Assembly: GCA_012840085.1 (NCBI GenBank)
Contig: DUMB01000081.1
Coordinates: 62,001-126,000, forward strand
Reading direction: 5' to 3'
Source of the DNA: Clostridiaceae bacterium
GTDB lineage: Bacteria > Bacillota > Clostridia > Acetivibrionales > DUMB01
Length of the DNA stretch: 64,000 nucleotides
Made by a program: the position numbers and the translations under genes. Position 1 is the first letter of the stretch; each line of letters opens with the position of its first letter. The notes below the pieces were generated by a model, which saw only the letters and a program-made list of their open reading frames with translations, was not told where the DNA came from and did not search any database. Shown here one piece after another: positions 8,122 to 22,739 of this stretch.

Positions 8122-9240
8122 TTACACAAGCCTTAAAAACATCCTTTTTATTTCTTCAGTTCCCATAGGAACTGGATTATTCAGTATATTTGGGTGCTTG
8201 CACTTTTCTGCAAGGCTGTCAAGATCCTTAATATCAATTCCTGCGTCAGCTAATGTGATTTTCATTCCCATAGCCTGTTTCATTTCCCTTATTCTTTTAC
8301 CCATAGCTGCTGCATTCTCAAATCCTATATCTTTCGCAAAGTCGTTGACTCTTCCTCCCTCGGCCTCAGCATTAATTTCACATAGCAGGTCGAGGGTAAA
8401 TGCACAGGCTTCGCCATGTGGAATATGATAAATATTTGTAAGCGGGAAGGAACAGGCATGTGATGCTGCTGTCTTCGGCAGTGTAAAAGCAAGTCCTGCA
8501 ATAACCGATGCTTCACACATCTTTTCTCTTGCCACTACGTCATTTCCGTTGTTATATGCTGCCTCAAGATATTTAAATGCTAATCTGGCTGCATGTAATG
8601 CCAGAGCATCGCATATAGGCTGATGATTTTTGCTCCAGAATCCTTCCAAAGCATGAGATATAACGTCGAGTCCCGTTGATGCCGTAACCTTGGGAGGTAC
8701 GGAATATGTCAGTTCGGGATCAATTATCGCTACCTTTGGATAAAGCTTTGAATTTGCAATAGGTGCTTTGATTCCTTTAGTCATGTCACTCAAAACTGAA
8801 ACACAGGTAACTTCGCTGCCTGTACCCGCTGTTGTAGGTATAGCTACAAGAGGCAGCACATCCTGAGTAAGTGTCTTTCCTCCGGTATGGTATGCTTCTA
8901 TGGTATCATCAGTCAAGGCAATGCCGCAGGCTGCTTTTGCACAGTCCATTGAGCTTCCGCCGCCAAGGGCAATTGCGAAATCAGCGCCGCATTTTCTCAT
9001 AATGTCAGCACATCTGTTGACATCTTCAACACGGGGATTAGGCGTAATATCCGAAAATACTTCCAGTATTCTTCCTCCACCTGATTCACATATTTTTTTT
9101 GCAAGGCCGTTCTGAGCAAAAAACGGGTCGCATACCAGAACTCCACGGTTCCAGCCTTTATTCTTAAGCAGGCTTTCAATATCTCTGGCACCACCTGTCT
9201 TAAATATTATTTCGACAGGCTGTTCATATACCCAATCCAA
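8122..9240 (-). CDS. Iron-type alcohol dehydrogenase, candidate sulfoacetaldehyde reductase
   Basis: This 372-residue protein belongs to the group III (Fe-dependent) alcohol dehydrogenases. Visible motifs are GGGSSMDCAKA (nucleotide binding), IPTTAGTGSEVT, and the metal ligands Asp and His in GLDVISHALEG, His in ASHACSFPL and His in IPHGEAC. The family reduces aldehydes with NAD(P)H in the cytosol. In the sulfo-transketolase pathway as I recall it, an enzyme of this family (SqwF) reduces sulfoacetaldehyde to isethionate and regenerates NAD+; the operon context here points to that role. TTG 9240 is my start choice (AAGGGAG ten bases upstream); a longer frame begins at TTG 9273 inside the previous gene. 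It is the last gene of the operon. Function is inferred from context, and 1,3-propanediol- or lactaldehyde-type activity is possible. Confidence 0.85.
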   Translation of the reverse strand: MDWVYEQPVEIIFKTGGARDIESLLKNKGWNRGVLVCDPFFAQNGLAKKICESGGGRILEVFSDITPNPRVEDVNRCADIMRKCGADFAIALGGGSSMDCAKAACGIALTDDTIEAYHTGGKTLTQDVLPLVAIPTTAGTGSEVTCVSVLSDMTKGIKAPIANSKLYPKVAIIDPELTYSVPPKVTASTGLDVISHALEGFWSKNHQPICDALALHAARLAFKYLEAAYNNGNDVVAREKMCEASVIAGLAFTLPKTAASHACSFPLTNIYHIPHGEACAFTLDLLCEINAEAEGGRVNDFAKDIGFENAAAMGKRIREMKQAMGMKITLADAGIDIKDLDSLAEKCKHPNILNNPVPMGTEEIKRMFLRLV

Positions 9241-9266
9241 ACTTAACACTCTCCCTTCCAAGAGAA

Positions 9267-10349
9267 TCAGCAAAAGTTTCTTAAAAGCTTTTCCGCATCA
9301 TCCATTTCCATATCAGGATAGATAATATATATCCCGTCATTTCCATACCTTTTTATTAAACGCTTTGTGGCATCCACCCAATAGTCAGAGTCATACTCAC
9401 TAACCAGTATCCATAAGGATTTGCCTGCAGACCTGACCTTATCATAAATAGGGTACCATTCCTCGCTCAGCCCATCGGCCTTTCCCGCTCCCGGCGTCCA
9501 CTGAAGGGCATCAAGCTCATCTATTTCAAGAATAGCATCAAGGTGGCGTATGGCATCAACACCATCAAGATGGTATAACGAATTATCAAGTTTCATACAT
9601 TGTTTTTTAATAGAATTCTGCACAAACTCCCTGTATTGCTCCTCAGAAATTATTGCTGAAAAGTCACACTGAAGTTTTGCAACCTTTCCTTCTGACCATA
9701 TATGAAATCCATTATAGGTGCTTTCACCGGTGGGGGTCTTTACAAGGTCGTAGAACCTGTCATAGTACTCAAAATACAGATTATCCAGATCCTCAACCAA
9801 TTTCTTTACAATTTCCGGATTGTCCATAATATCAAAACATAAATTCTCTGCACCGCGCATCGAAGCAAGTATGTCAAGGTTCTCCACAATATCAGGAATA
9901 TCTACAAAGACATCTCCACCTATTAACCGGCACGCTTCCTTAATACTTTCATAATGCCGCTTAAACCATACAGAATCCTCATCAAAATCGAGCTTTGGAT
10001 TATTTCCCCAATCATCTACAAACTTTTCAAACCAAACAGAATCTTCACCAAAAATGGGCTTGCAGCCAAGATAAGCCGCCATCGCTCCCGGCCCCATAAA
10101 AATTTTGAAGTGTGGGAACCCTTCAGCCAGGAAAGCATGCTGGCGACAGTAATTCATGTAATTTGCGACTGTTTTGCCGGGATGCAGCCATTTTTCTTCC
10201 ATATTGGCATAGGGCTCAACTTCCTCAAGGGGCTCGACAGCTTCCTTCCTTCTGGCTACTATACGCATCATAGGGCGGTCCATACTTTCACCCTTCCACC
10301 ATGCATTCATTCGCTGGCGTGTTTCCTGCCAGTTGTCTTTATACTTCAT
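9267..10349 (-). CDS. Uroporphyrinogen-decarboxylase-fold protein, role unknown
   Basis: This 360-residue protein has the look of the URO-D / corrinoid-methyltransferase-partner superfamily: an N-terminal NWQETRQRMNAWW segment, a central DIPDIVENLDILASMRG helix-loop, HIWSEGKVAKLQCDFSAIIS, and a YHLDGVDAIRHLD strand with the conserved His/Asp pair. Members outside haem synthesis act as methyltransferases for methylamines, methanol or methoxy compounds, and many have no known substrate. No corrinoid protein gene is adjacent. The gene is inside the sulfoquinovose operon, 26 bases before the dehydrogenase and 133 bases after the RpiB-like gene. The published SQ pathways I know of have no step for it, so it is an unexplained component. 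Confidence 0.75.
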   Translation of the reverse strand: MKYKDNWQETRQRMNAWWKGESMDRPMMRIVARRKEAVEPLEEVEPYANMEEKWLHPGKTVANYMNYCRQHAFLAEGFPHFKIFMGPGAMAAYLGCKPIFGEDSVWFEKFVDDWGNNPKLDFDEDSVWFKRHYESIKEACRLIGGDVFVDIPDIVENLDILASMRGAENLCFDIMDNPEIVKKLVEDLDNLYFEYYDRFYDLVKTPTGESTYNGFHIWSEGKVAKLQCDFSAIISEEQYREFVQNSIKKQCMKLDNSLYHLDGVDAIRHLDAILEIDELDALQWTPGAGKADGLSEEWYPIYDKVRSAGKSLWILVSEYDSDYWVDATKRLIKRYGNDGIYIIYPDMEMDDAEKLLRNFC

Positions 10350-10482: not shown

Positions 10483-10953
10483 TTAATATATTTTATCTTC
10501 CAGTGCCTCAAACTCTTTTTTGGCATTTTTCAGGAATTCCTGGCGCCATTCTTCAAGACCCTGAGTGAACGCGGTCTCAAGGAAAATTTTACACATTTCT
10601 ATTCCCATGTTTTCGGCAATTATCCAGCCTCCCATGCAAAGAACATTGGAGTCATTGATTGCGCGGCACATACGGGCTGCATATAAGCTTTCCACACAAG
10701 CTGCCCGGATACCTTTGTACTTGTTTGCCACTTGCGCCATTCCCATTCCGGTTCCACATATCAATATTCCTCTGTCCGCTTTCCCATCCTGTATCAACTG
10801 AGCGGCCTCAGGCGCAACTTTAAAGAAAGGAACTCCAACATCCGGATTTGTTGTCCCTATTTCTATAAATTCATAATTATTTTCTTTAAGATATGCTTTA
10901 ATTGCCTCTTTAAGGCTATAACCCGACTTGTCAGAACCGATTACTATTTTCAT
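10483..10953 (-). CDS. RpiB/LacAB-family sugar isomerase, candidate sulfoerythrose isomerase
   Basis: This 156-residue cytosolic isomerase keeps the RpiB catalytic cysteine motif ICGTGMGMAQVANK and GIRAACVESLYAARM. Several residues that read phosphate-sugar substrates in RpiB differ: the usual DH-x-G at the start is DKSG, the tyrosine-proline before the first helix is VP, the ring-opening histidine in R-x-HND is isoleucine (CRAINDSN), and the C-terminal RHxxR phosphate clamp is not present. Loss of the ring-opening His suits an open-chain substrate. In the sulfo-transketolase route SqwI, an RpiB relative, interconverts 4-deoxy-4-sulfoerythrose and sulfoerythrulose, which cannot form a furanose ring. 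The gene follows the split transketolase by 97 bases. A tetrose-phosphate isomerase is the main alternative. Confidence 0.85.
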   Translation of the reverse strand: MKIVIGSDKSGYSLKEAIKAYLKENNYEFIEIGTTNPDVGVPFFKVAPEAAQLIQDGKADRGILICGTGMGMAQVANKYKGIRAACVESLYAARMCRAINDSNVLCMGGWIIAENMGIEMCKIFLETAFTQGLEEWRQEFLKNAKKEFEALEDKIY

Positions 10954-10978: not shown

Positions 10979-11062
10979 TTTCTCTGCCTTATTTTATTTC
11001 TCTCCCTCATTTTTTAGTTTTCTTTATCTTATTTTTTAGCTTTCTTTGCCTCATTTTTTAGC
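10979..11062. repeat. Degenerate 22-bp tandem repeat spanning a stop codon
   Basis: Three 22-base units (10997-11018, 11019-11040, 11041-11062) and one shortened unit (10979-10996) share the core TTTCTTTGCCTCATTTTTTA on the plus strand. The TGA stop of the transketolase gene (11051-11053) lies inside the last unit, so the array starts in the final codons and extends downstream. Confidence 0.85.
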
Positions 11063-11980
11063 CTCTACAGCTTCCAGTGCCTTAGCTGCAATATTTTCAG
11101 CTGTTAGCCCAAACCTGATTTTAAGTTCCTCCAGCGTTCCTACCTCTCCAAAAATGTCCTCTACCCCAACACTTCTAAGAGGTACCTGGCACTTTTCGCA
11201 TATTACCTCTGCTATCGCACTGCGCAAACCACCTATGATATTGTGGTTTTCTGCGGTTACTATGCATCCTGTTTTAGCAACCGATTTTAGAATTGTATCA
11301 CTGTCAATGGGTTTAATTGTATGTACATTAATTATTTCCGCATTTATTCCCTTTTGCCTGAGAATTTCCCCGGCTCTCAGTGATTCGCCCAACATTATCC
11401 CGGAAGCTGCGATTGTAACATCTTTTCCTTCCTGAATAACATCAGCCTTGAAGAGATCAAACTCATAATCATCATTGAAAATTTGAGGTTGAGCCTTACG
11501 GAAAAGCCTCAGATAAACAGGACCGTCATATTCAACTATTTTAGGCATTGATTTTTTCAATTGTACCGCATCAACAGGCTCGAAAATTACCATTGAAGGT
11601 ATAGAACGAACAACACCTATATCCTCCATGCTCATATGCGTACCGCCGTTTAACTCGGCTGATATTCCAGGGTCTGTGCCTACAATTTTAACATTTTGCT
11701 TTGCATATGCTATTGATATGGCTATCTGGTCACAAATTCTGCGTGTTGCAAAAGGACAGAAAGATGTTATAAATGGTATAAACCCATAAGATGCCAGTCC
11801 TGCAGCCACAGATGCCATATTCTGCTCTGCAACTCCTACGTCAAAAGCTCTTTCTGGGTATTTATTTCTTAAAAACAATGTGCCGTTAGCTTTTGAAAGG
11901 TCTGAATCAATTACGACTATACGCTCATCACTTTCCATCATGCGGTCAAGCTCTGAAGCAAAAACAGCTCTCATTTCCAT
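11051..11980 (-). CDS. Transketolase C-terminal subunit of the SQ operon
   Basis: This 309-residue protein carries the transketolase pyrimidine-binding domain (RIVVIDSDLSKANG, then AEQNMASVAAGLASYG with the catalytic Glu that activates thiamine diphosphate) and the C-terminal domain (AENHNIIGGLRSA). It is one half of a split transketolase whose PP-binding half is the next gene upstream, 15 bases away. In this operon the pair is the best candidate for the sulfosugar transketolase (SqwGH type), moving a two-carbon unit from 6-deoxy-6-sulfofructose to glyceraldehyde 3-phosphate. A second split pair at 31173-32958 is presumably the pentose-phosphate enzyme. The final codons and stop are part of a tandem repeat. 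Confidence 0.9.
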   Translation of the reverse strand: MEMRAVFASELDRMMESDERIVVIDSDLSKANGTLFLRNKYPERAFDVGVAEQNMASVAAGLASYGFIPFITSFCPFATRRICDQIAISIAYAKQNVKIVGTDPGISAELNGGTHMSMEDIGVVRSIPSMVIFEPVDAVQLKKSMPKIVEYDGPVYLRLFRKAQPQIFNDDYEFDLFKADVIQEGKDVTIAASGIMLGESLRAGEILRQKGINAEIINVHTIKPIDSDTILKSVAKTGCIVTAENHNIIGGLRSAIAEVICEKCQVPLRSVGVEDIFGEVGTLEELKIRFGLTAENIAAKALEAVEAKK

Positions 11981-11995
11981 AGTTCCAATTCCTCC

Positions 11996-12814
11996 CTATC
12001 TCAGTTCCTGCAGAGCGGCTTCCAACTGCTCTTTTGTTATAGGCATATTATGATTTCCTGCTCCCACTGCTTCTATAAAGGACACGCCTTTGCCTTTAAT
12101 AGTGTCAAGAATGATCATTGAAGGTTTTCCTTCAGTTTTTTTAGCTTTTTCTATTGCTTCATATATGGCAAAATGATCATGCCCATCTATTCTCTGAACG
12201 TGCCATCCGAAACTCTCCCACTTTGCAGGCAGGTCGGACAAACTGTTAACCTCATCTATAGGCCCATCTATTTGCAATTTGTTGTAATCAGTGAAGGCAA
12301 TCAGGTTATCCAGCTTCTTATGGGCAGCAAGCATTGCGGCTTCCCATATCTGGCCCTCCTGGGATTCACCGTCACCGATAATTGTATATATATATGCCCC
12401 GTCTTTTTTAATTTTTGAGCCTATTGCTATACCTACTGCACAGGAAAAACCCTGTCCCAGGGCGCCGGTTGTCATGTCGACACCGGGGGTTTTGTTCATG
12501 TCGCAATGACTGGGTAAGTTTGTACCCAATCTGTTAAGCGTATAAAGCTCATCCTTCGGGAAAAAACCCTTGCTTGCCAAAGTCGCATACAATGCAGGGC
12601 CAGCATGTCCTTTTGATATAATGAGACGGTCTCTGCCTTCCATTTTCGGATTAGCCGGATCTACATTCATTTGTGAATAGTACAGCACTGTCAGAACATC
12701 CACTATAGAGAGACATCCTCCTATATGACCTACACCCAGATTTCCTATACACTCTATTGTAAGCCTTCGGATTTCCTTGCTTTTTTCTTCAAAAGATGCT
12801 TTATCCATTACCAT
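11996..12814 (-). CDS. Transketolase N-terminal (thiamine diphosphate) subunit of the SQ operon
   Basis: This 272-residue subunit holds the ThDP/Mg binding motif GDGESQEGQIWEA followed about 27 residues later by DYNKLQIDG, plus GHAGPALYA and the STGALGQGFS-type loop (MTTGALGQGFS). Near the N-terminus it reads GHIGGCLS where the other copy in this window reads GHPGGSLS; this loop is next to the active site, so substrate change is plausible. It is translated just before the C-terminal half. Start ATG 12814 has AAGGAG nine bases upstream. It follows the importer permeases by 29 bases. The sulfosugar assignment rests on operon context. Confidence 0.9.
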   Translation of the reverse strand: MVMDKASFEEKSKEIRRLTIECIGNLGVGHIGGCLSIVDVLTVLYYSQMNVDPANPKMEGRDRLIISKGHAGPALYATLASKGFFPKDELYTLNRLGTNLPSHCDMNKTPGVDMTTGALGQGFSCAVGIAIGSKIKKDGAYIYTIIGDGESQEGQIWEAAMLAAHKKLDNLIAFTDYNKLQIDGPIDEVNSLSDLPAKWESFGWHVQRIDGHDHFAIYEAIEKAKKTEGKPSMIILDTIKGKGVSFIEAVGAGNHNMPITKEQLEAALQELR

Positions 12815-12843: not shown

Positions 12844-13728
12844 TCATCCTTTGACAGCGCCACTTGTGAGCCCTGCTATTATTTGATTCTGGAATAGTAC
12901 ATAAGCAGTAATACTGGGCAGGATACTAACTATAATTGCAGCATACATCGATACATAATCTGTACTGAACTGATTTGTAAAATATCTTATTCCAAGCTGA
13001 ATAGTTCTCACGGTCTGTGATGATGTAAGCAGATTTGCATATACAAATTCATTCCAACATGTCAAAAACTGAAACGTACCGGCTGTTACAATTCCCGAAC
13101 GGGACAATGGAAAAATTACGGTAAAAAACCTCTTGTAAAAGTTAGCGCCATCTATTACTGCAGCCTCTTCCAGTTCCTTTGGAACCGACTTCATAAAGCC
13201 CATAACTATAAATGTGGAAATAGGTACACCGATAGCCGTGTAGACAAGAATCAGTCCGCCCATCTTATTATATAACCCAATATTGCTGATAAGCACAAAG
13301 TATGGAACCATCAGGGCATTTAAGGGAACAAGTATTCCGGATGAAAACGCTGTCTGCAACAGCTTATTTCCCTTAAATTCAAATCTCGACACTGAATATG
13401 CAGCCATTGAAGTTATGAGAATATTTAAAGCTGTAGCAGCCATTGAAATGACTACCGAGTTTAACATCATTCTTCCAATTCCTGAAACCGTTATAGCTTT
13501 TGTGTAGTTTTTAAACTGCCATATCTTAGGCAGAGAAAATGGATTTGCCATAAGCTCGCCATTTGTTTTCAGAGACGCAATAGCCAGCCAAATTACGGGA
13601 AATACCGCATATGCGAATAGAAACAGCAAAAATGTCCACTTTAATATGCTTAAAATAATTGATGCCGGAGAAACGTCTCTTTTAATTCTTATTGCATCTT
13701 TTTTAATTCTTACTGCATCAGTTGACAC
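12844..13728 (-). CDS. Sugar ABC transporter permease, MalG type (SQ operon)
   Basis: This 294-residue permease has a cytoplasmic N-terminus, about six membrane helices, an EAA loop (EEAAVIDGANFYKRFF) and a C-terminus ending in GAVKG. I start it at GTG 13728, which has GGGAGG seven bases upstream; the longer frame from TTG 13764 overlaps the previous gene and lacks an SD site. The N-terminus contains a recent in-frame 21-base duplication (DAVRIKK then DAIRIKR). With the preceding permease and the lipoprotein at 14917 it forms a three-part importer, likely for sulfoquinovose or its glyceryl glycoside; the ATPase is not encoded here and is probably a shared MsmX-type protein. Confidence 0.9.
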   Translation of the reverse strand: MSTDAVRIKKDAIRIKRDVSPASIILSILKWTFLLFLFAYAVFPVIWLAIASLKTNGELMANPFSLPKIWQFKNYTKAITVSGIGRMMLNSVVISMAATALNILITSMAAYSVSRFEFKGNKLLQTAFSSGILVPLNALMVPYFVLISNIGLYNKMGGLILVYTAIGVPISTFIVMGFMKSVPKELEEAAVIDGANFYKRFFTVIFPLSRSGIVTAGTFQFLTCWNEFVYANLLTSSQTVRTIQLGIRYFTNQFSTDYVSMYAAIIVSILPSITAYVLFQNQIIAGLTSGAVKG

Positions 13729-13744
13729 TGCAAGCCCTCCCTTC

Positions 13745-14614
13745 CTAATAGTTTGGTCGACCAATAGTATTTCTCAGCGTCAGTATAACAATGGTACCTA
13801 CACATATGAGCACTACCGCAGCCGCACTGGAAGTCCCGTATGCATAATTCTGCATTTCTTTATAGAGATAAAGTACCATAACAGAAGTCCTGTTTGATGG
13901 GCCTCCGTTTGTCAGCATATAGACCTGTTCGAACTGACGCATGCCATTGATCATCGCAAGCAGCATACATGTTACTATTGAGGTTTTTGCCAAAGGCACC
14001 GTAATACTGATGCTTTGACGTATTCGGCTTGCACCGTCTATATCAGCTGCCTCATAATAATCTTCAGGTATACTCTGTATATCAGCAAGTATTATTACCA
14101 TAAAGTAACCTACATAAAATACCCAGTAAATCAATAGAGCCGGGAAAGCGGTGTCAAGTGAACCGAGCCAGTTCTTCTCCAAATGTCCAAGGCCTAAAAT
14201 TCTTAAAATTCCGTTGAGCATACCGTATTGTGCATTGTAAACCGCTGACCATAATGTTGCCAGCGCAACACCGGAAATAACCTGCGGGAAAAAGTAAACC
14301 GTTCTGAATATTTTCCATCCTCTGGGCTTATACGAAAGCAGAATGGCTGTAAGTACTGCCAACGGCACTTGTACAAATCCGGCAACAAGTGCCCATATAA
14401 TATTATTGGTTATAGATCGAATAAAAACTTTATCAGTGAATATCTTAATGTAGTTGGTCAAACCTGTAAATACCGGGGCATCAAAACCGGACCACTTATT
14501 AAAGCTCATTATTACAAGATATATAACCGGATAAACAAAGAATGCTATAAACAGAATCAAAACAGGCAGCAAGAAAAGTATTACTCCTATTTTTTCATCT
14601 CTTTTCACATTCAT
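13745..14614 (-). CDS. Sugar ABC transporter permease, MalF type (SQ operon)
   Basis: This 289-residue permease has six predicted membrane helices and an EAA loop (YEAADIDGASRIRQSISI). Its N-terminus is short, as in sugar importers of the CUT1 group. The start has GGGGGG seven bases upstream. It is 16 bases before the partner permease and 302 bases after the binding protein gene; that gap carries a strong stem-loop and a tandem repeat, an arrangement that usually lets the binding protein be made in excess. Confidence 0.9.
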   Translation of the reverse strand: MNVKRDEKIGVILFLLPVLILFIAFFVYPVIYLVIMSFNKWSGFDAPVFTGLTNYIKIFTDKVFIRSITNNIIWALVAGFVQVPLAVLTAILLSYKPRGWKIFRTVYFFPQVISGVALATLWSAVYNAQYGMLNGILRILGLGHLEKNWLGSLDTAFPALLIYWVFYVGYFMVIILADIQSIPEDYYEAADIDGASRIRQSISITVPLAKTSIVTCMLLAMINGMRQFEQVYMLTNGGPSNRTSVMVLYLYKEMQNYAYGTSSAAAVVLICVGTIVILTLRNTIGRPNY

Positions 14615-14916: not shown

Positions 14917-14931
14917 TTACCTCTTGGAATT
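14840..14931. repeat. 23-bp tandem repeat, four units, spanning a stop codon
   Basis: Four units of exactly 23 bases occupy 14840-14862, 14863-14885, 14886-14908 and 14909-14931, with a decayed fifth before them. Shared core on the plus strand: CTTCTTACCTCTTG. The TAA stop of the binding-protein gene (14917-14919) lies in the unit nearest the gene, so the array is seeded from the last codons (Asn-Ser-Lys-Arg-stop). Confidence 0.9.
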
Positions 14932-16254
14932 AAGCCGTTCAACAAATTGTTCCGGTGTTAATTCTCCAAGGACAAGCCCTGACAATGCCATCGGCAATTC
15001 ATTGTATACTGCCGGAGTATTCATATACTGGAAGTGTCCGACAATGTATGGAGCTTCATTAATCTGTTTTATCATCTCAGCCTGCAGACGTTCTAATTCT
15101 ACACCTGTATCTACGCTCTTTACATAGAACAATGATCCTGCTGCAGCTGAAAGTTCAGTAACTCTCTCAGGTTTAGTAAGGTATTTCATAAATTCTATTG
15201 CAGCATTAGCCTTATCTTTATCATCAGTAGCACCGGCTGCAAGTAATGCCTGAGGATTTCCGATATATCCGCCCTTGCTTCCCCTGCCGCCTTCATAGAC
15301 AGGACATGGAGCTATTGCCACATTTTCATACATATTGTTTTGCCCATCAGTCTTGAGCCTTCCTATATACCAAGGTCCGTTCATGAAGATTGCTGTTTCT
15401 TCAGCAAGGAAGTGACCGCCGGAAACGGAAGCACCTGCACCAACAGCATCTTTCGTGGTGTAATTAAACATTTTCTTGATAACTTCTGCAGCCTGTACAT
15501 ATGCAGGATCATTTGGATTTTCATAAATATCAGGCCCGCCAATGGCTACTAACACCTGTGAGTACCACAGCATTGTTGTCCAGGCATTTTCCCCTGTCAT
15601 CTGAGAGAAAGGTGTAATCCCTGCTGCCTTAAGATCTTCAGCGCATTGCCAGAGCTCATCAAATGTTTCGGGGAACTTATCCCATCCTGCCTGCTTTAAG
15701 AGCTTTTTATTATACATTACAGGTGTTACTGCCATTTCATAAGGTATAGCATATACTTTTCCGTCAACTGTAGTGTTGTTCAGAGCACCACTTACAAAAT
15801 CATTTGCCCATCCGCTGTTTACTGCTTCAGTGAGATCAAGAAGTTTACCACTTTGCAGATAGAATGGTATGTCACTGTCAATGGTGAAGAAATCAGGTGC
15901 GTTTCCTGCTGATACTGTAGTTCTTAGCTTATCTCTGTATGCCTGGTAGTCGGAATTTTCTTCAATCACAACTTCAATTTTACCTTTGTTTTCCTCATTG
16001 AATTCCTGGACAAACTTTGCAATAGTCGATGCTTTGGAGTCTACTCCAACCCAGATACAAGGCCAGGTAAGTGTAACTTTTTTTGCGGGAGCAGCATCTT
16101 GCTTCTGCTCTGAAGTAGTTGAAGAGTTTCCGGAACTCGTTCCCGGGTCTTTCGTTCCCGGGTCTTGTGAACTATCCTTTCCACAGGCCACAAACAATGA
16201 CGCTGCCATGATGATACAGATGAGTAGTGCCAGGGTTCTCTTTAAAGTTTTCAT
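14917..16254 (-). CDS. Sugar-binding lipoprotein of the SQ operon importer
   Basis: This 445-residue family-1 solute-binding protein has a lipoprotein signal ending LFVAC (Cys 24), a Ser/Thr/Gly linker, and a core with ADFFTIDSDIPFYLQSGKLLDLTEAV, MYNKKLLKQAGWDKFPETFDE and FMNGPWYIG, as in maltose/multiple-sugar binding proteins. It is anchored outside the membrane and hands the ligand to the two permeases at 12844 and 13745. Start ATG 16254 has AAGGAGG eight bases upstream. The operon context suggests sulfoquinovose or sulfoquinovosyl glycerol as ligand; the sulfonate-reading residues cannot be picked out by eye. Confidence 0.9.
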   Translation of the reverse strand: MKTLKRTLALLICIIMAASLFVACGKDSSQDPGTKDPGTSSGNSSTTSEQKQDAAPAKKVTLTWPCIWVGVDSKASTIAKFVQEFNEENKGKIEVVIEENSDYQAYRDKLRTTVSAGNAPDFFTIDSDIPFYLQSGKLLDLTEAVNSGWANDFVSGALNNTTVDGKVYAIPYEMAVTPVMYNKKLLKQAGWDKFPETFDELWQCAEDLKAAGITPFSQMTGENAWTTMLWYSQVLVAIGGPDIYENPNDPAYVQAAEVIKKMFNYTTKDAVGAGASVSGGHFLAEETAIFMNGPWYIGRLKTDGQNNMYENVAIAPCPVYEGGRGSKGGYIGNPQALLAAGATDDKDKANAAIEFMKYLTKPERVTELSAAAGSLFYVKSVDTGVELERLQAEMIKQINEAPYIVGHFQYMNTPAVYNELPMALSGLVLGELTPEQFVERLNSKR

Positions 16255-16353: not shown

Positions 16354-17085
16354 CTAAACCAGCATAAATATTCCTGAAACAAGCAGTACTAAATAAGTGA
16401 ATCTTGTAAAAAAAGTTTCGTTCATTTTATCATGGGCCAAATTCCCTACAACTGCCCCAACAAGCAGGAATGGTAATCCGTATACCGTTGTTCTGGCAAC
16501 TTCAGCTGTAAAGTCTCCGGCAGCAATCATCTGCAGAAGTATAACAGTGTTCAGCGTTACCCATATAAGACACAAAGTTGCGCGAAACTGTGACTTCTGC
16601 TTTATTTTTTCTGTAGCATATATTATGACAAGAGGGCCTCCGGACGAATATGCTCCGTGTATTATGCCTCCCAGGAAAACACAGATTAGTGCAGGAATAT
16701 CTTTTATCCGGCCCCTCTTTTTAACAACTTCAAATGATAAAAGCAATCCCCTTATTGAAGTAACCGCCATAAATATAGCAAGAGCTATAATAAGAGGCTT
16801 TCTTGGCATCCATTGATAGGCCATAATGCCAATAGGAAGACCTAATATCAGCATGCCCATCATTTTCAGGTAATGATTCCACTGAATCTGGCGGAATCCC
16901 TTTACTGCAAAAATGAGGCAGAGCAGCAATGCATAGAGAGTAAGGACAGGTTTGGCAACTTCCATGCCTAAGAGCATGATAGAGAAAGGCATTGCCAGGA
17001 CAGTACATCCAAAGCCTGTTATCCCCTCCAGAAAATGAGTCGATACTACTACCAGTCCAAACAGCAAAATAGTTGAAATATCCAT
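16354..17085 (-). CDS. TauE/SafE-family membrane exporter, candidate sulfonate exporter
   Basis: This 243-residue protein has about eight hydrophobic segments and the duplicated layout of the TauE/SafE family (FLEGITGFGCTVLAMPF near the start, and FLGGIIHGAYSSGGPLVIIY in the second half). Relatives export sulfite, sulfoacetate, sulfolactate or other small sulfonates, and such a gene is standard in SQ clusters because the C2 or C3 sulfonate end product must leave the cell. Here the expected cargo is isethionate. ATG 17085 has GGAGG five bases upstream. It starts 11 bases after the DUF4867 gene ends. Cargo is inferred. Confidence 0.85.
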   Translation of the reverse strand: MDISTILLFGLVVVSTHFLEGITGFGCTVLAMPFSIMLLGMEVAKPVLTLYALLLCLIFAVKGFRQIQWNHYLKMMGMLILGLPIGIMAYQWMPRKPLIIALAIFMAVTSIRGLLLSFEVVKKRGRIKDIPALICVFLGGIIHGAYSSGGPLVIIYATEKIKQKSQFRATLCLIWVTLNTVILLQMIAAGDFTAEVARTTVYGLPFLLVGAVVGNLAHDKMNETFFTRFTYLVLLVSGIFMLV

Positions 17086-17096
17086 TTTGTCCTCCA

Positions 17097-17753
17097 TCAA
17101 AGCCTGATTACAATGTTTTCGCCTGTTATACCTTCATATGCACCGCGGCTTTTCAGAGCCTCAGCTTCAGGATGCACAAACAGCCACTTATTTTTCATCC
17201 ACAATGCCGGATCCCTTCTTATAGGTGAATCAAGCGGCAAATTGGTTCCTTCAGGCAAAATTACAATCATTTTAAAGCCGTTTGTTTCAACGGCACAGGG
17301 TGAAAAGTGAAGTGTCGTGCTGTAAAGCTCTACCGCTTCGCCCTTTCTGATGTAAAAGGCTTCAACTTTTTTACTGTCTATTTTACCTCCGCATATTTCT
17401 GTTACTGATGCTACAAGCAGTAGACTGTCTGTCACAGCCACATTTATTTCACTGCTTTTATGGTACTCAAGAGCGTTCAGCTTTACGTTATGTCCATTGC
17501 AATACCCAATCTGAATAGGCATTTCACCGTAAAAAAACTGTGTCAGCTCGTTAAATATTTTGAAGGAATGCATATTCTTATCATCTGCAACATATATATT
17601 ACCTTCATCAGGTATGCTTACATGTTTATCAACATACTCAATTAACTGGGAAAAATCGTATTCATCTATTATTCTCCCATATTTTTTAAATTCAGGACTG
17701 TTTACAGGCCTTATGCACAGTGTTGGATTCTTTTGTCTTATCTTTTCAAGCAT
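17097..17753 (-). CDS. DUF4867-family protein, candidate sulfoquinovose isomerase
   Basis: This 218-residue protein matches my memory of the DUF4867 family (IQIGYCNGHNVKLNALEYHKSSEINVAVTD, shown in part: IQIGYCNG and EYHKSSEINVAVTD; later TTLHFSPCAV). The His/Glu spacing (EYHKSSE, then a His in TLHFSPC) looks like a cupin metal site. As I recall, the SQ isomerase of the Firmicutes transaldolase pathway (SftI/SqvD), which makes 6-deoxy-6-sulfofructose, is from this family; I cannot check that here. ATG 17753 overlaps the sulfoquinovosidase stop by eight bases (ATGCTTGA), so translation is coupled to it. The fucose-isomerase-like protein at 19919 is the competing candidate. Confidence 0.75.
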   Translation of the reverse strand: MLEKIRQKNPTLCIRPVNSPEFKKYGRIIDEYDFSQLIEYVDKHVSIPDEGNIYVADDKNMHSFKIFNELTQFFYGEMPIQIGYCNGHNVKLNALEYHKSSEINVAVTDSLLLVASVTEICGGKIDSKKVEAFYIRKGEAVELYSTTLHFSPCAVETNGFKMIVILPEGTNLPLDSPIRRDPALWMKNKWLFVHPEAEALKSRGAYEGITGENIVIRL

Positions 17754-19767
17754 TTTTCCATATCCCTTCTCTGCGGATATCTTCAAAAATCTCTTTGTAT
17801 GGTGAATCTTTACGATAAAATACCGCCGGTTTGCCTATGGGAGTATCTATCTCCACCCATCCCTTGCCAAACTGCCTTCCATCCCACAAATATACCCATT
17901 CATCCTCCGGCAGGTACAAGGTCTGTACTGTCTGTCCTTCGTTGTAGACAGGAGCCACCGCAAGGTCCCTGCCAAACAAATACTGGTATTGTAAGCTGTA
18001 GGTGTCTTTGTCATTCTCATAATGTATGAAGAATGGACGCATTAAAGGCATACCTTTAGATGCGTTCTCCTCAAGCAAATCTCTGATGTATCTGCTCAGT
18101 TTAGCATGTATTCTTGTAGCCCATGCGAAGTGTGAAATAGTCTCTTCATCTGAATCAAACTGCCAGTTATCGTCAGGACGGTTACCCTCATGTGTCCTCA
18201 TGACCGGAGTAAATATCCCAAATTCAGCCCAGCGCTGGAACAGCTCCTTTGTCCTGCGCATACCGTAAAGGGTTGTATATCCCCCTATATCACTGGTATG
18301 TATTCCGTACCCTGACATACCAAGGGACAGTGCTGCTGTTATTACTGAAGCAAGACCATCATCAAGACTCCAGTCAACATTTTGGTCCCCCGCCCATATC
18401 ATTGTGGCATATTTCTGTGAACCAGTATAACCTGCTCTCATGAAAAATACCGACTTACCAAGCCTGCCTGACTTTACAAGTGCATTATGGTTTACCTCTG
18501 CCCACAGTGCAGGCCATTTGTTATGCATTATCATGGCATCTTCACCACTGTAAAGTACAGCATCTACCGGCAGGTATTCGCCGAAATCGGCCATCCAGCC
18601 ATCGATTCCCATATCAATCAGATTTCTGACTATCATGTCGCTGAACCATTCACGGGCATCAGGATTGGTAAAATCTACGATTCCACAATAAAATTCTCCG
18701 AAATCAACTATATAGGTGTCTCCATTACTATTACGAACAAGATAATCTTTCTCCTTAGCCTCTACGAATTGAAGGCCGTCAACACAGACATAAGGATTGA
18801 CATAAGCTAAAAAATGAATCCCTTCTTTTTTCCATCTCTTAATCTGTTCATCAAGCCCCGGATACAATTCCTTGTTCCAGTGCCAATCCCACTTCAGCCG
18901 TTTCCCAAAAGACGTATACCTGACGCCTACCCAGTCTTGCGCCCAGACAGCATTTATCACTGCCCCGGCTTCCCGCATGCGCTTTGCCTTTTCAACACAG
19001 ATGCGGGTACCTCCCTGTATCCCCAGCCATGCGCCGGTATAAGCCCATTCCGGCAGTACTGTCTGCCTGCCAAGAAGCCCTGTAAGTTTATATAAAAGTT
19101 CCGCATATGTATCTGCTGTCTCAAAGGTAATGTTATACTCCGTACCCCATATGTGCAGTTCATGGTAATTTTCATGTCTGAAATCCAGAATCTGATACTC
19201 ACCATTGTCTACATGGCAATAATACTTTCTGGAAGAAATAAACGTAGGCTGCGGAAAGAATGTCGTCCAATAATCACCACCACCGCCATCATTACAATCT
19301 GCAAGGAATGTGGTCATAGTCTTTTTATTTCGCCCTACCCCCTGCTCAGTAGTGAATATAGGAAATTTTCTTCCTCTTAAATTAAAGTATGAGAATTGTT
19401 CACCGCCGCCATAAACATATTCATCTTTGCAGGCCGTAAGCCGCAACCAGCTTCTGTTGTAGCAATCTTTTCCCTTTGTTATGATGCGAAGCCTGCCATT
19501 CTCTTCAAACACTTTCATTTCAAGTGCATTGATTTTATCTATATGAAATAGTCTTATTATGCAAATATCCTTTTCTTGTTCTATCTCAAAGCTTTCAAGT
19601 GGAAGACGCTCGATAATCTCATCCTGCACGTCGAAATTGCCAACCTGCATTTTGATGGTTTCGCTGCCTTTCCCAACATATGCACAAGGGTTTTTACGGC
19701 TATGATTTATCAGTACTCTGCCATCCAATCGGATTATAAAACTGTCGTGACTGATGCTTACATCCAT
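17746..19767 (-). CDS. yihQ: Sulfoquinovosidase (GH31, YihQ type)
   Basis: This 673-residue GH31 hydrolase cleaves alpha-sulfoquinovosides such as sulfoquinovosyl glycerol. E. coli YihQ is close to the same length. The catalytic nucleophile lies in GGWMADFGEYLP-like GWMADFGEYLP (about residue 400) and the acid in WAGDQNVDWSLDDG. The residues that bind the sulfonate in YihQ, as I recall Arg301, Trp304 and Tyr508, have equivalents here: Arg and Trp in FGKRLKWDW and Tyr in IGGYTTLYG. Ordinary alpha-glucosidases and alpha-xylosidases of GH31 lack this set. The MRTHEGNRPDDNWQFD block also matches. There is no signal peptide, so it acts inside the cell. ATG 19767 has GGAGG eight bases upstream. This gene is the strongest single reason for reading the operon as SQ catabolism. 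Confidence 0.93.
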   Translation of the reverse strand: MDVSISHDSFIIRLDGRVLINHSRKNPCAYVGKGSETIKMQVGNFDVQDEIIERLPLESFEIEQEKDICIIRLFHIDKINALEMKVFEENGRLRIITKGKDCYNRSWLRLTACKDEYVYGGGEQFSYFNLRGRKFPIFTTEQGVGRNKKTMTTFLADCNDGGGGDYWTTFFPQPTFISSRKYYCHVDNGEYQILDFRHENYHELHIWGTEYNITFETADTYAELLYKLTGLLGRQTVLPEWAYTGAWLGIQGGTRICVEKAKRMREAGAVINAVWAQDWVGVRYTSFGKRLKWDWHWNKELYPGLDEQIKRWKKEGIHFLAYVNPYVCVDGLQFVEAKEKDYLVRNSNGDTYIVDFGEFYCGIVDFTNPDAREWFSDMIVRNLIDMGIDGWMADFGEYLPVDAVLYSGEDAMIMHNKWPALWAEVNHNALVKSGRLGKSVFFMRAGYTGSQKYATMIWAGDQNVDWSLDDGLASVITAALSLGMSGYGIHTSDIGGYTTLYGMRRTKELFQRWAEFGIFTPVMRTHEGNRPDDNWQFDSDEETISHFAWATRIHAKLSRYIRDLLEENASKGMPLMRPFFIHYENDKDTYSLQYQYLFGRDLAVAPVYNEGQTVQTLYLPEDEWVYLWDGRQFGKGWVEIDTPIGKPAVFYRKDSPYKEIFEDIRREGIWKNA

Positions 19768-19918
19768 TTTGAATACCTCCAGCAGTGCTTGATTTTTCTC
19801 CAATGTTGCATTGCCTTACAATACTCCGCTTATTCCACTTTACTTTGCCCTTCTTCTTTTATTGCCTCGTACCATTTCTGATGCATCACTATGCTTTTAA
19901 TGCATTAGGATTTCGCAC

Positions 19919-21238
19919 TTATTCTATTAATTCATAGTTCATTATTTTTGAAAAAATCTTAAAGGCTTTTAGTTTATCAGAGTAAATCATGGCGAGATGA
20001 TGTGCCACACCTGTTGATGTTACAGTGTCAAGCACTTCGTTAACCGGTTTGTCAAAAATTACTTTAGCATAGGTGCCGGTAAGTTCCTTTTCCATTGGCA
20101 CTACAGTACCGCCTTGAACAAAGAGACGTGTCTTTCCTCTTGCTGAATCAATCCTCATAATATTCATACGTCCTGATTTCATTACAAAGCCGGCTGTTAC
20201 TCCGCGGCCACCGGCGAAATATGTATCAAGGCTTCTGATGCAATTGCCGTCCCAAAGGTTCATTGGTGCTACGCCACAGTGCCAGAGCAAAGCATAATTT
20301 TCCTCAAAATTTACCTGTGAAAGGTCTGCAAGAAATGGTGTCTGCCGTTCTCCTACAGCATCACATGCAAGCATTGACATGACGCCTTCAATATCGCCTT
20401 CACATCCAAGAATATAGCCTTTGGATTGCAGGATGGACATGGCAGCACATGGTGATATACCATACATATTTGCAAATTCCGGCCAGCAGCGTACAGCCAG
20501 AGCTGTTAATGCGTGATTTTTCATAAACTTTTCAAACTTAACACATAGTGCAGCGACCTTGTCTTTCTGATCATCCGAAATATCACTGCAATTAAATCCA
20601 TCTGATATTTCTTTTAAGAAAAGCTCTTTATCTTCGGGAAGAACCTGCATTGAAAGGATGTCACTAATTTCATAATGGTCAATAAGAATGCCCGTCTGTG
20701 CAAAATTTTGCATTTCATCGATATCCAGATTGAAAAATCCATGAGCACGGTACCCAACTATACCAATGTGAGCACTTTCCAGCGCGGCTTTCATTCTTAT
20801 GGCATCTATCCAGTCAGTATCGATTTTATCGCCGACAATACATATATAATCATTAAACCCTGCTTTATAAAGATTTGATGCATTCAGATTTACACCACAT
20901 ACAGAATTGAGACGAATTTTACCGCCATTATAGGGCAATTCGCTGAAAGCCCAAAGCAGAACCGGCTTATTCAGGAGTCTCTTCAGTATTAATGCGAGGT
21001 GTCCCAGGTGGAATGTACCTGTTATTATCACAAGGCCATCCAGTTGCTTTGCTGATAGTCTTTCTGCTGCAGCATAGGCTTCATCGGTATTAATGATAAG
21101 CTCCGGTTCAAACTCCCACTCTACTTTCGGGACTTCTTTCAGTTCTTCCATGGTCCTTGCATATATTTCTGCCGCAGCCTTAAAATCATATGTCTCTCTG
21201 GCCAGGCACACAACACCTATTCTCACATTTTTCAGCAT
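19919..21238 (-). CDS. L-fucose/L-arabinose isomerase-fold protein, second candidate sugar isomerase
   Basis: This 439-residue protein resembles the fucose isomerase group: an N-terminal Rossmann-like half (KNVRIGVVCLARETYDF, VIITGTFHLGHLAL), a middle domain, and a C-terminal half with CEGDIEGVMSMLACDAVG, whose Glu/Asp resemble the Mn ligands, and LWHCGVAPMNL with a candidate ligand His. These enzymes interconvert aldoses and ketoses. It is the first gene of the SQ operon; the sulfoquinovosidase starts 151 bases later. It may convert SQ to sulfofructose, process another sugar released with SQ, or act as an epimerase-like helper. Start ATG 21238 has GGGGG seven bases upstream. Confidence 0.8.
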   Translation of the reverse strand: MLKNVRIGVVCLARETYDFKAAAEIYARTMEELKEVPKVEWEFEPELIINTDEAYAAAERLSAKQLDGLVIITGTFHLGHLALILKRLLNKPVLLWAFSELPYNGGKIRLNSVCGVNLNASNLYKAGFNDYICIVGDKIDTDWIDAIRMKAALESAHIGIVGYRAHGFFNLDIDEMQNFAQTGILIDHYEISDILSMQVLPEDKELFLKEISDGFNCSDISDDQKDKVAALCVKFEKFMKNHALTALAVRCWPEFANMYGISPCAAMSILQSKGYILGCEGDIEGVMSMLACDAVGERQTPFLADLSQVNFEENYALLWHCGVAPMNLWDGNCIRSLDTYFAGGRGVTAGFVMKSGRMNIMRIDSARGKTRLFVQGGTVVPMEKELTGTYAKVIFDKPVNEVLDTVTSTGVAHHLAMIYSDKLKAFKIFSKIMNYELIE

Positions 21239-21539: not shown

Positions 21540-22739
21540 TTAATTAATAACGCCTCCATTGCTGAAAAAGTGCTTTATCGCAAGAGATGCAGGACCTTTT
21601 GTATCAAGTTCTCCATTATACTCACTTTTTACCAATAATGTTCTAATGTCTTTGTAGTGGTTGTTGTCCAGCATAAAATCATACAGCAGTTCAAGAAAAT
21701 CTTTATTTTCAAACACTTCTCCATATAATACAACTTTTTCCGGATCGTATAGTGTTATGGCATTCTTTATTGTCAGCGCAAAATAGCGCATTGCTCTTGA
21801 CATAATATCCCGAATAGTCATATCTCCACCCTTATATGCTTTCATAATAATATCTATATCAAAGCCTGGAAAATTACCCTGTGTCAATTCATACAAGACG
21901 GGTGTAGACCTTTGTGAATAAACCGCTTTTATACTCCTTTCTATTGCATCGTAAGAGACTATGGTTTCAAGGCAGCCACATTTCTTACACCTGCATGGTA
22001 CTCCAAGCGGGTCAACCACGACATGACCTAACTCAGTTGCACGGTAGTTATAACCGGTAAATAGTTTTTCGCTAATGGCCAGTGCACCACCTATTCCAGG
22101 TCCATATTTCACAAGCAGCATGGAACTCGGCTTCTCTTTCGAATAGAATAGCTGTCCCCGGGCAATGCTCCTGACATTATTATCTACACTCACAGGCAGC
22201 TTAACCTGTTCTGCAAACATACGCTTCACCTCAACGTTATCACGCCACATACCAAAGGATTCAAGGCTTACGCCATTTTGATTGTCAACTATACCGCGAA
22301 CCCCTATACCAATACCTACAATACATTCCTTTTTTACTTCAGGCATTATTTTAATGCTGTCTGCTATTACACTGCAGGTATGTTTTACCAGCTCTTCAGG
22401 TGTACTGAATTCAGATGTGTTAAGATGGTGTTTAAACAGGGTTCTGCCCTTTAAATCAATACATATTATTTTCGTACAGTTGAGGTTTATATTCACACCT
22501 ATGGCGTAGAATTTATTGCGTTTTATATCAATAATAACCTCTTTACGTCCTACTCTGCTGGAGTTCAGCTCTTCTCCAATTTCCTCAAGCAAGCCCTCCT
22601 TTATCATGTCATTGGTAATAAGCGTAATAGCTGCCGGCGTAAGTTTTAACCGGGCTGCTATTTCCTTGCGGGAAAGCCCGCCATGAGAATAAAGAAGCTC
22701 AAGTATTGATGCTCTGTTTTGTTTTTTTACATGAATCAT
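21540..22739 (-). CDS. ROK-family transcriptional repressor (NagC/XylR type)
   Basis: This 399-residue protein has an N-terminal winged helix-turn-helix (SRKEIAARLKLTPAAITLITNDMI, residues about 20-45) and a ROK sugar-kinase-like domain. That domain has VGIGIGVRGIVDNQNG and the ROK zinc motif CRCKKCGCLETIVS, with an upstream His in ELGHVVVDPLG. Such proteins repress sugar operons and release DNA on binding a sugar or sugar phosphate. It is the last gene of the nagA-nagB-oxidoreductase unit and lies directly upstream of the SQ operon promoter. The shared promoter word suggests that it controls both units; this is inference. Confidence 0.9.
   Translation of the reverse strand: MIHVKKQNRASILELLYSHGGLSRKEIAARLKLTPAAITLITNDMIKEGLLEEIGEELNSSRVGRKEVIIDIKRNKFYAIGVNINLNCTKIICIDLKGRTLFKHHLNTSEFSTPEELVKHTCSVIADSIKIMPEVKKECIVGIGIGVRGIVDNQNGVSLESFGMWRDNVEVKRMFAEQVKLPVSVDNNVRSIARGQLFYSKEKPSSMLLVKYGPGIGGALAISEKLFTGYNYRATELGHVVVDPLGVPCRCKKCGCLETIVSYDAIERSIKAVYSQRSTPVLYELTQGNFPGFDIDIIMKAYKGGDMTIRDIMSRAMRYFALTIKNAITLYDPEKVVLYGEVFENKDFLELLYDFMLDNNHYKDIRTLLVKSEYNGELDTKGPASLAIKHFFSNGGVIN

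Follow-up and report, generated by a model that had tools for sequence, protein, structure and literature searches.

A divergent URO-D-superfamily protein in a clostridial sulfoquinovose operon as a proposed corrinoid-dependent O-demethylase

The protein encoded at positions 10349 to 9267 on the minus strand of the window (the whole 64,000-nucleotide stretch of DNA analyzed here) is probably an MT-I-type corrinoid-dependent O-demethylase of the URO-D superfamily, recruited to a sulfosugar operon and served by a partner encoded in trans. We assign this reading a probability of about 0.6. Methyl transfer had been one of several options offered by an earlier sequence-only reading of this DNA, and it is now the best-supported activity on the basis of gene fusions, adjacent genes for corrinoid proteins and MeTHF methyltransferases, genomic co-occurrence, and the active-site motif. 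The subfamily to which the protein belongs is tied to sugar operons and to corrinoid methyl transfer, and the protein is one of many such enzymes in the sugar operons of anaerobes. Corrinoid methyltransferases and O-demethylases of the URO-D superfamily are already known, and the literature searched contains no description of a glycan-operon clade that has a His-x-Asp motif, a triple fusion, and a corrinoid partner in trans.

The open reading frame recognized in the sequence-only reading is real: it is a single intact frame of 360 amino acids that begins with ATG. Its placement between an isomerase and a dehydrogenase gene is likewise borne out. An RpiB-family gene resembling SqwI, the 4-deoxy-4-sulfoerythrose isomerase (10483–10953), lies 133 bp upstream, and an Fe-type alcohol dehydrogenase gene (Fe-ADH; 8122–9273), whose product resembles the sulfoacetaldehyde reductase SqwF, lies downstream. 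The reported 26-base gap to the latter stands if the ADH starts at the TTG at 9240, but the longest ADH frame, from the TTG at 9273, overlaps the URO-D stop codon. A terminator scan revealed no minus-strand terminator in the interval separating the RpiB-type and URO-D genes; the strongest minus-strand terminator-like hairpin (8064–8037, a consensus match only) comes after the ADH gene, the last gene ahead of it, and appears to close the operon.

The remaining genes of this operon, all on the minus strand, encode the two halves of a split SqwGH-like transketolase (C-terminal half, 11051–11980; N-terminal half, 11996–12814), two sugar ABC permeases (12844–14614), a sugar ABC solute-binding protein (14917–16254), a TauE/SafE-type exporter resembling SqwE (16354–17100), a DUF4867 protein (17097–17786) named SftX in the literature (PMC13219744), a GH31 sulfoquinovosidase of the YihQ family (17746–19803), a sulfoquinovose (SQ)-isomerase-like protein (19919–21238; NF048012 at 189 bits, below its cut-off), and a ROK/NagC-type regulator (21540–22739). 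The GH31 protein matches E. coli sulfoquinovosidase YihQ (5AED) over its full length (E 2.6e-260), and its GIQGGT, AQDW, and GKR-x-x-W stretches align with those of 5AED. Together with the split transketolase, RpiB-type isomerase, Fe-ADH, TauE exporter, DUF4867 protein, and SQ-isomerase-like protein, which make up the sulfo-transketolase (sulfo-TK) gene set as described (PMC12890257), this enzyme establishes that this is an authentic operon for the plant sulfosugar sulfoquinovose, as had been claimed. DUF4867, a label without an assigned function, recurs in the SQ operons L156, L160, L161, and L166, and is also found near the URO-D relatives L095 and L142, neither of which is accompanied by a true sulfoquinovosidase (SQase).

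The protein is too divergent for the available URO-D models. None of the Pfam and NCBIfam models recognizes it, and PF01208 gives no match at E values up to 1, matching only 15 of 56 relatives (best E 3.8e-5). A profile search of PDB sequences with the window family likewise yielded chance-level matches only, with the methyltransferase MtaA not among them. An AF2 model built from the alignment of the 56 relatives has a mean pLDDT of 95.4 and a pTM of 0.92, and the top Foldseek match to this model is MtaA (4ay8, E 1.5e-8; also 4ay7), followed by UroD enzymes. Identity to MtaA in the Foldseek alignment is 12–13%, short of the mark of more than 25% to a characterized SCMT. In VIA-align, UroD and MtaA are level at Z 19.6–19.8 over approximately 300 residues, and cobalamin-independent methionine synthase scores 12–13. 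The model thus places the protein in the URO-D/CIMS superfamily, with a (beta/alpha)8 fold predicted over its full length, and the fold claim of the sequence-only reading is correct at the superfamily level; given the divergence from the Pfam and NCBIfam models, that reading saw beyond the HMM libraries. Because UroD and MtaA match the model equally well by Z, the fold alone does not select between a decarboxylase and a methyltransferase.

The active site is more informative in this respect. Ten residues are invariant among the 56 sequences, which share 23–53% identity: P79, G86, W106, D153, D159, D229, H260, D262, G263, and Q283. Profile-profile comparison (probability 98%, E ~1e-14) sets H260-L-D262-G263 against the H-S-C-G of canonical superfamily members, so that an invariant His-x-Asp in the window subfamily occupies the place of the His-x-Cys within the His-Cys-Cys zinc motif of S-methyltransferases; HxC is absent from the subfamily. 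The S-methyltransferases of the superfamily bind zinc through His-Cys-Cys, and in the O-methyltransferases one or both Cys residues are replaced by carboxylates or non-ligands (Kountz and Balskus, PMC10418091). It follows that the window protein, with His and a carboxylate in place of Cys, matches the O-methyltransferase pattern at a putative metal site. Canonical URO-D members of the same genome carry HxC or HxD at this motif position, both kinds being present.

A direct link to corrinoid chemistry is found among the relatives. In six rumen-type Clostridiales loci (L138, L140, L141, L144, L147, and L153), a single protein of approximately 967 amino acids joins, in this order, a pterin-binding MeTHF-type methyltransferase, a two-part B12-binding domain (with the DFHDIGK motif), and a URO-D domain that is 41–43% identical to the window protein. 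The domains of the L141 fusion were identified by Pfam; in L138 a frame change separates the first domain from the rest. Elsewhere the same components are encoded side by side. A gene for a MeTHF:corrinoid/iron-sulfur protein methyltransferase, scoring above the NF005719 cut-off, lies directly upstream of the URO-D gene in L118, the same methyltransferase domain is encoded upstream of URO-D in L119 and L121, and a free corrinoid protein gene adjoins URO-D in L048 and L137. In the tree, the fusions, the loci with MeTHF-methyltransferase neighbors, and L137 all fall within clade B. The window protein forms a branch of its own inside a 47-sequence clade (support 99/99), and L048 lies outside it. 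With L048 outside and the clade B cases inside, the corrinoid association brackets the window protein, most of the cases coming from one clade.

The sequence-only reading noted that no corrinoid protein is encoded nearby, which is right for this contig. The genome as a whole encodes one free corrinoid protein, which is MtgC-like and resides on another contig (C67:25804-26436), followed by genes for a RACE-type activase, a PocR-AraC regulator, and a DUF2284 protein. The RACE on C67 is the sole RACo-domain protein of the genome. The only other B12-binding_2 protein is a MetH-like protein on contig C13, an 816-amino-acid frame with pterin- and B12-binding domains, and it shares pterin binding with just one other protein of the genome, a FolP-like 283-amino-acid frame on C56. 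The lack of a neighboring corrinoid gene would be accounted for by the lone corrinoid protein and reductive activase on C67, and pairing of the window protein with the C67 corrinoid protein in trans is accordingly put forward here as putative, from gene content. The genome contains no MttB-type methyltransferase, and the search for pterin-binding proteins revealed no dedicated MT-II (MeTHF:corrinoid methyltransferase).

Co-occurrence across genomes points in the same direction. Among 291 genomes of the class, with thresholds of E < 1e-30 for the URO-D subfamily and E < 1e-69 for the corrinoid protein, a free corrinoid protein is present in 38 of the 39 genomes that have the subfamily and in 40 of the 252 others (Fisher's exact test, ~1e-24). 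A permutation confined to taxonomic families, which takes out most of the phylogenetic effect, gives P ~1e-5; it counted 39 rather than 40 genomes in the second group, with the same result. The one exception, G095, is 86% complete. The window's genome also has 26 canonical URO-D genes above the Pfam PF01208 cut-off, and eight of 14 control genomes had any. With these 26 paralogues in the same genome, co-occurrence alone is no proof that the subfamily uses the corrinoid protein: the C67 protein may be a common hub for all members of the URO-D superfamily, and it could serve only the canonical paralogues and not the window protein. Several of these approximately 26 genes (e.g., L211–L230) lie by glycosidase or sugar ABC transporter genes, an expansion around one corrinoid hub.

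The genomic surroundings of the subfamily are dominated by sugar metabolism. Neighbor families were counted within ~9 kb of relatives at 74 loci, and the commonest are GH31 (20 loci), sugar ABC permeases (16–18), GH106 (nine, all adjacent), split transketolase halves (seven), and GH95 (seven). The closest relatives, in L076, L078, and L082 (51–53% identity), reside in operons that also encode two split transketolases along with a transaldolase and an L-fucose-isomerase-like protein. Judging from this gene content, the likeness to the window operon is one of pathway style and does not extend to sulfosugar genes; these operons possibly represent a further transketolase pathway acting on a sugar. 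L078 and L082 also carry a DUF1537-type kinase and PdxA around the URO-D relative. In the window's own genome, a paralogue on contig C64 lies among GH38, GH65, and GH31 genes; both intact genes of the subfamily sit in glycan operons. A literature search for URO-D genes in polysaccharide loci returned nothing relevant.

A part of the sequence-only reading that does not survive is the proposal of a co-selected role in SQ catabolism. Eleven other true-SQase loci were collected from samples of the class and the phylum, and the family gene, sought at E 1e-3, is absent from all of them. Four of these loci have full sulfo-TK sets, two of the four coming from one genus; an order-wide search added two more SQase genomes, from one genus already sampled, and their loci stand outside the 11-locus count. 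In G199, which has the Fe-ADH closest to that of the window (57%), a gap of 4 bp separates the end of SqwI from the Fe-ADH, and no gene lies between. Approached from the other side, a scan of genome contigs with the window protein as a single sequence found no relatives, and an alignment query recovered 80 loci. These 80 closest relatives are 40–53% identical to the window protein, and none has a true SQase beside it. GH31 enzymes encoded next to relatives were considered as sulfoquinovosidases and rejected, since they score 84–169 bits as compared with 531–773 for true SQases. A lack of co-occurrence with SQ genes across genomes had been named beforehand as the outcome that would refute the proposal, and the survey gave that outcome: among the loci examined, the subfamily and SQ genes occur together nowhere beyond the window operon. 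Its absence from the other SQase loci, and the absence of SQases beside its relatives, indicate that the window gene has not been co-selected with the SQ pathway, and a general step of the SQ pathway is rejected on the same 11 loci. The complete sulfo-TK pathway requires no URO-D-type step (PMC12890257), and the sulfo-TK literature searched makes no mention of such a gene. The window URO-D gene appears to be a lineage-specific insertion in an operon of a known type.

The proposed reaction would begin with the binding, in the TIM barrel, of a substrate that bears an O-methyl group, most likely an O-methyl sugar. The ether oxygen would be bound near H260/D262 and activated, probably by a metal, and the methyl group would pass to Co(I) of the separate C67 corrinoid protein, with RACE rescuing oxidized cobalt. 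In relatives, the methyl group would leave by way of the MeTHF methyltransferase. Since the window's genome has no dedicated MT-II, this role would have to fall there to MetH or to a thiol-type URO-D paralogue, and for the same reason we do not place the protein, although it would work like an MT-I, among the classical three-component O-demethylase systems. The demethylated sugar would then enter the catabolic pathway of the operon, in this case the sulfo-transketolase route for sulfoquinovose. The analysis itself shows the fold, the residue conservation, the gene fusions, the gene neighborhoods, and the co-occurrence, and from these we infer the binding of a metal, the identities of the methyl donor and of the final acceptor, and any activity on a sulfosugar; O-methyl sulfoquinovose as the substrate is a guess from the operon, and no such compound was found in the literature searched. 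More broadly, and only tentatively, anaerobic bacteria could possess an extensive, hitherto undescribed complement of URO-D methyltransferases that strip O-methyl groups from sugars, each encoded in the operon of its own sugar and all sharing one corrinoid protein and activase, with the window gene dedicated to O-methylated sulfoquinovose or a related sulfosugar.

The corrinoid evidence would apply equally to a corrinoid methyltransferase whose methyl donor has no relation to the sugar skeleton (a methoxylated aglycone or methanol, for instance), or to one that works in reverse and methylates a substrate, with the SQ operon providing only co-expression. UroD-superfamily O-demethylases of aromatic ethers are indeed known (PMC10418091). 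However, the neighbors of the subfamily are mostly sugar genes (GH31, GH106, GH95, ABC transporters, transketolases, and isomerases), and both intact subfamily genes of the genome lie in glycan operons, with GH38, GH65, and GH31 around the C64 copy, which makes such a donor rather unlikely. Less probable still is a corrinoid-independent decarboxylase or lyase of the URO-D fold that acts on a sugar acid or sulfonate intermediate. PF01208 takes its name from a decarboxylase, and against the model UroD structures reach the same Z as MtaA, but this reading leaves unexplained both the fusions to a corrinoid protein and pterin methyltransferase and the co-occurrence in 38 of 39 genomes, and it supplies a step that the complete sulfo-TK pathway does not need (PMC12890257).

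It is also conceivable, though we doubt it, that the gene is a passenger, a URO-D copy that came to lie between SqwI and Fe-ADH yet contributes nothing to SQ metabolism. Among the operons examined it occurs in one SQ operon only, the 4-bp junction in G199 has nothing in its place, and a decayed, related URO-D fragment upstream on the same contig suggests that URO-D copies come and go. On the other hand, the window frame is intact, retains all of the invariant residues, abuts the ADH gene, and is preceded by a ribosome-binding-site-like stretch and no terminator. The fragment itself (L053:6690-6830, corresponding to G000:C72:58752-58829; minus strand, intergenic) is the remnant of a second gene of the window subfamily, located ~3.2 kb ahead of the window start; it is 58% identical over 26 amino acids, most of the gene having been lost.

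As a proposed corrinoid-dependent O-demethylase, the window protein can be set beside several known systems. MtaA/MtbA-type enzymes (MtaA, 4AY7/4AY8) and Mlp of the type 1 mlp clusters (PMC10418091) share the URO-D fold with it and work with a corrinoid protein and RACE, as is proposed for it, and the corrinoid/RACE locus of the window's genome resembles the mlp clusters, including in its lack of a folate methyltransferase; some mlp-cluster organisms are likewise reported to have no dedicated MT-II (PMC10418091). The window protein differs from MtaA and Mlp in sequence (~12% identity), in having His-x-Asp as opposed to the His-Cys-Cys zinc site, and in residing in a sugar operon and not a corrinoid locus. 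With the OdmB/VdmB-type MT-I enzymes of acetogens, likened here by description, it shares the proposed ether cleavage to a corrinoid protein, a carboxylate for Cys, and, in six loci, fusion to MT-II and corrinoid domains; the known substrates of OdmB/VdmB are aryl methyl ethers, whereas the window gene has a glycan context and a genome without a dedicated MT-II. HemE has the same fold (Z 19–20), but the window protein is not recognized by PF01208 and has no heme context. Relative to the sulfo-TK pathway (SqwGH, SqwI, SqwF) of Clostridium sp. MSTE9 and Faecalicatena, the host operon has the full set and the window gene is extra.

A known aerobic route for O-methyl sugars uses a cytochrome P450; we know of no anaerobic enzyme that removes O-methyl groups from sugars, and the literature searched gave none. 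Should the proposed activity be correct, many genes labeled uroporphyrinogen decarboxylases in gut and digester bacteria would gain a testable function, and glycan breakdown would be linked to one-carbon metabolism. Because the genome pairs approximately 28 URO-D-superfamily genes with a lone free corrinoid protein and a lone activase, many of these genes could be assayed with the same biochemical set-up. Separately, two loci (L211:6424-9249 and L192:4876-7670) encode a URO-D protein with a thioredoxin-like C-terminal extension beside a small CxxC protein and a CobW-like GTPase, and in L192 this set adjoins the genes for the PocR regulator and corrinoid protein.
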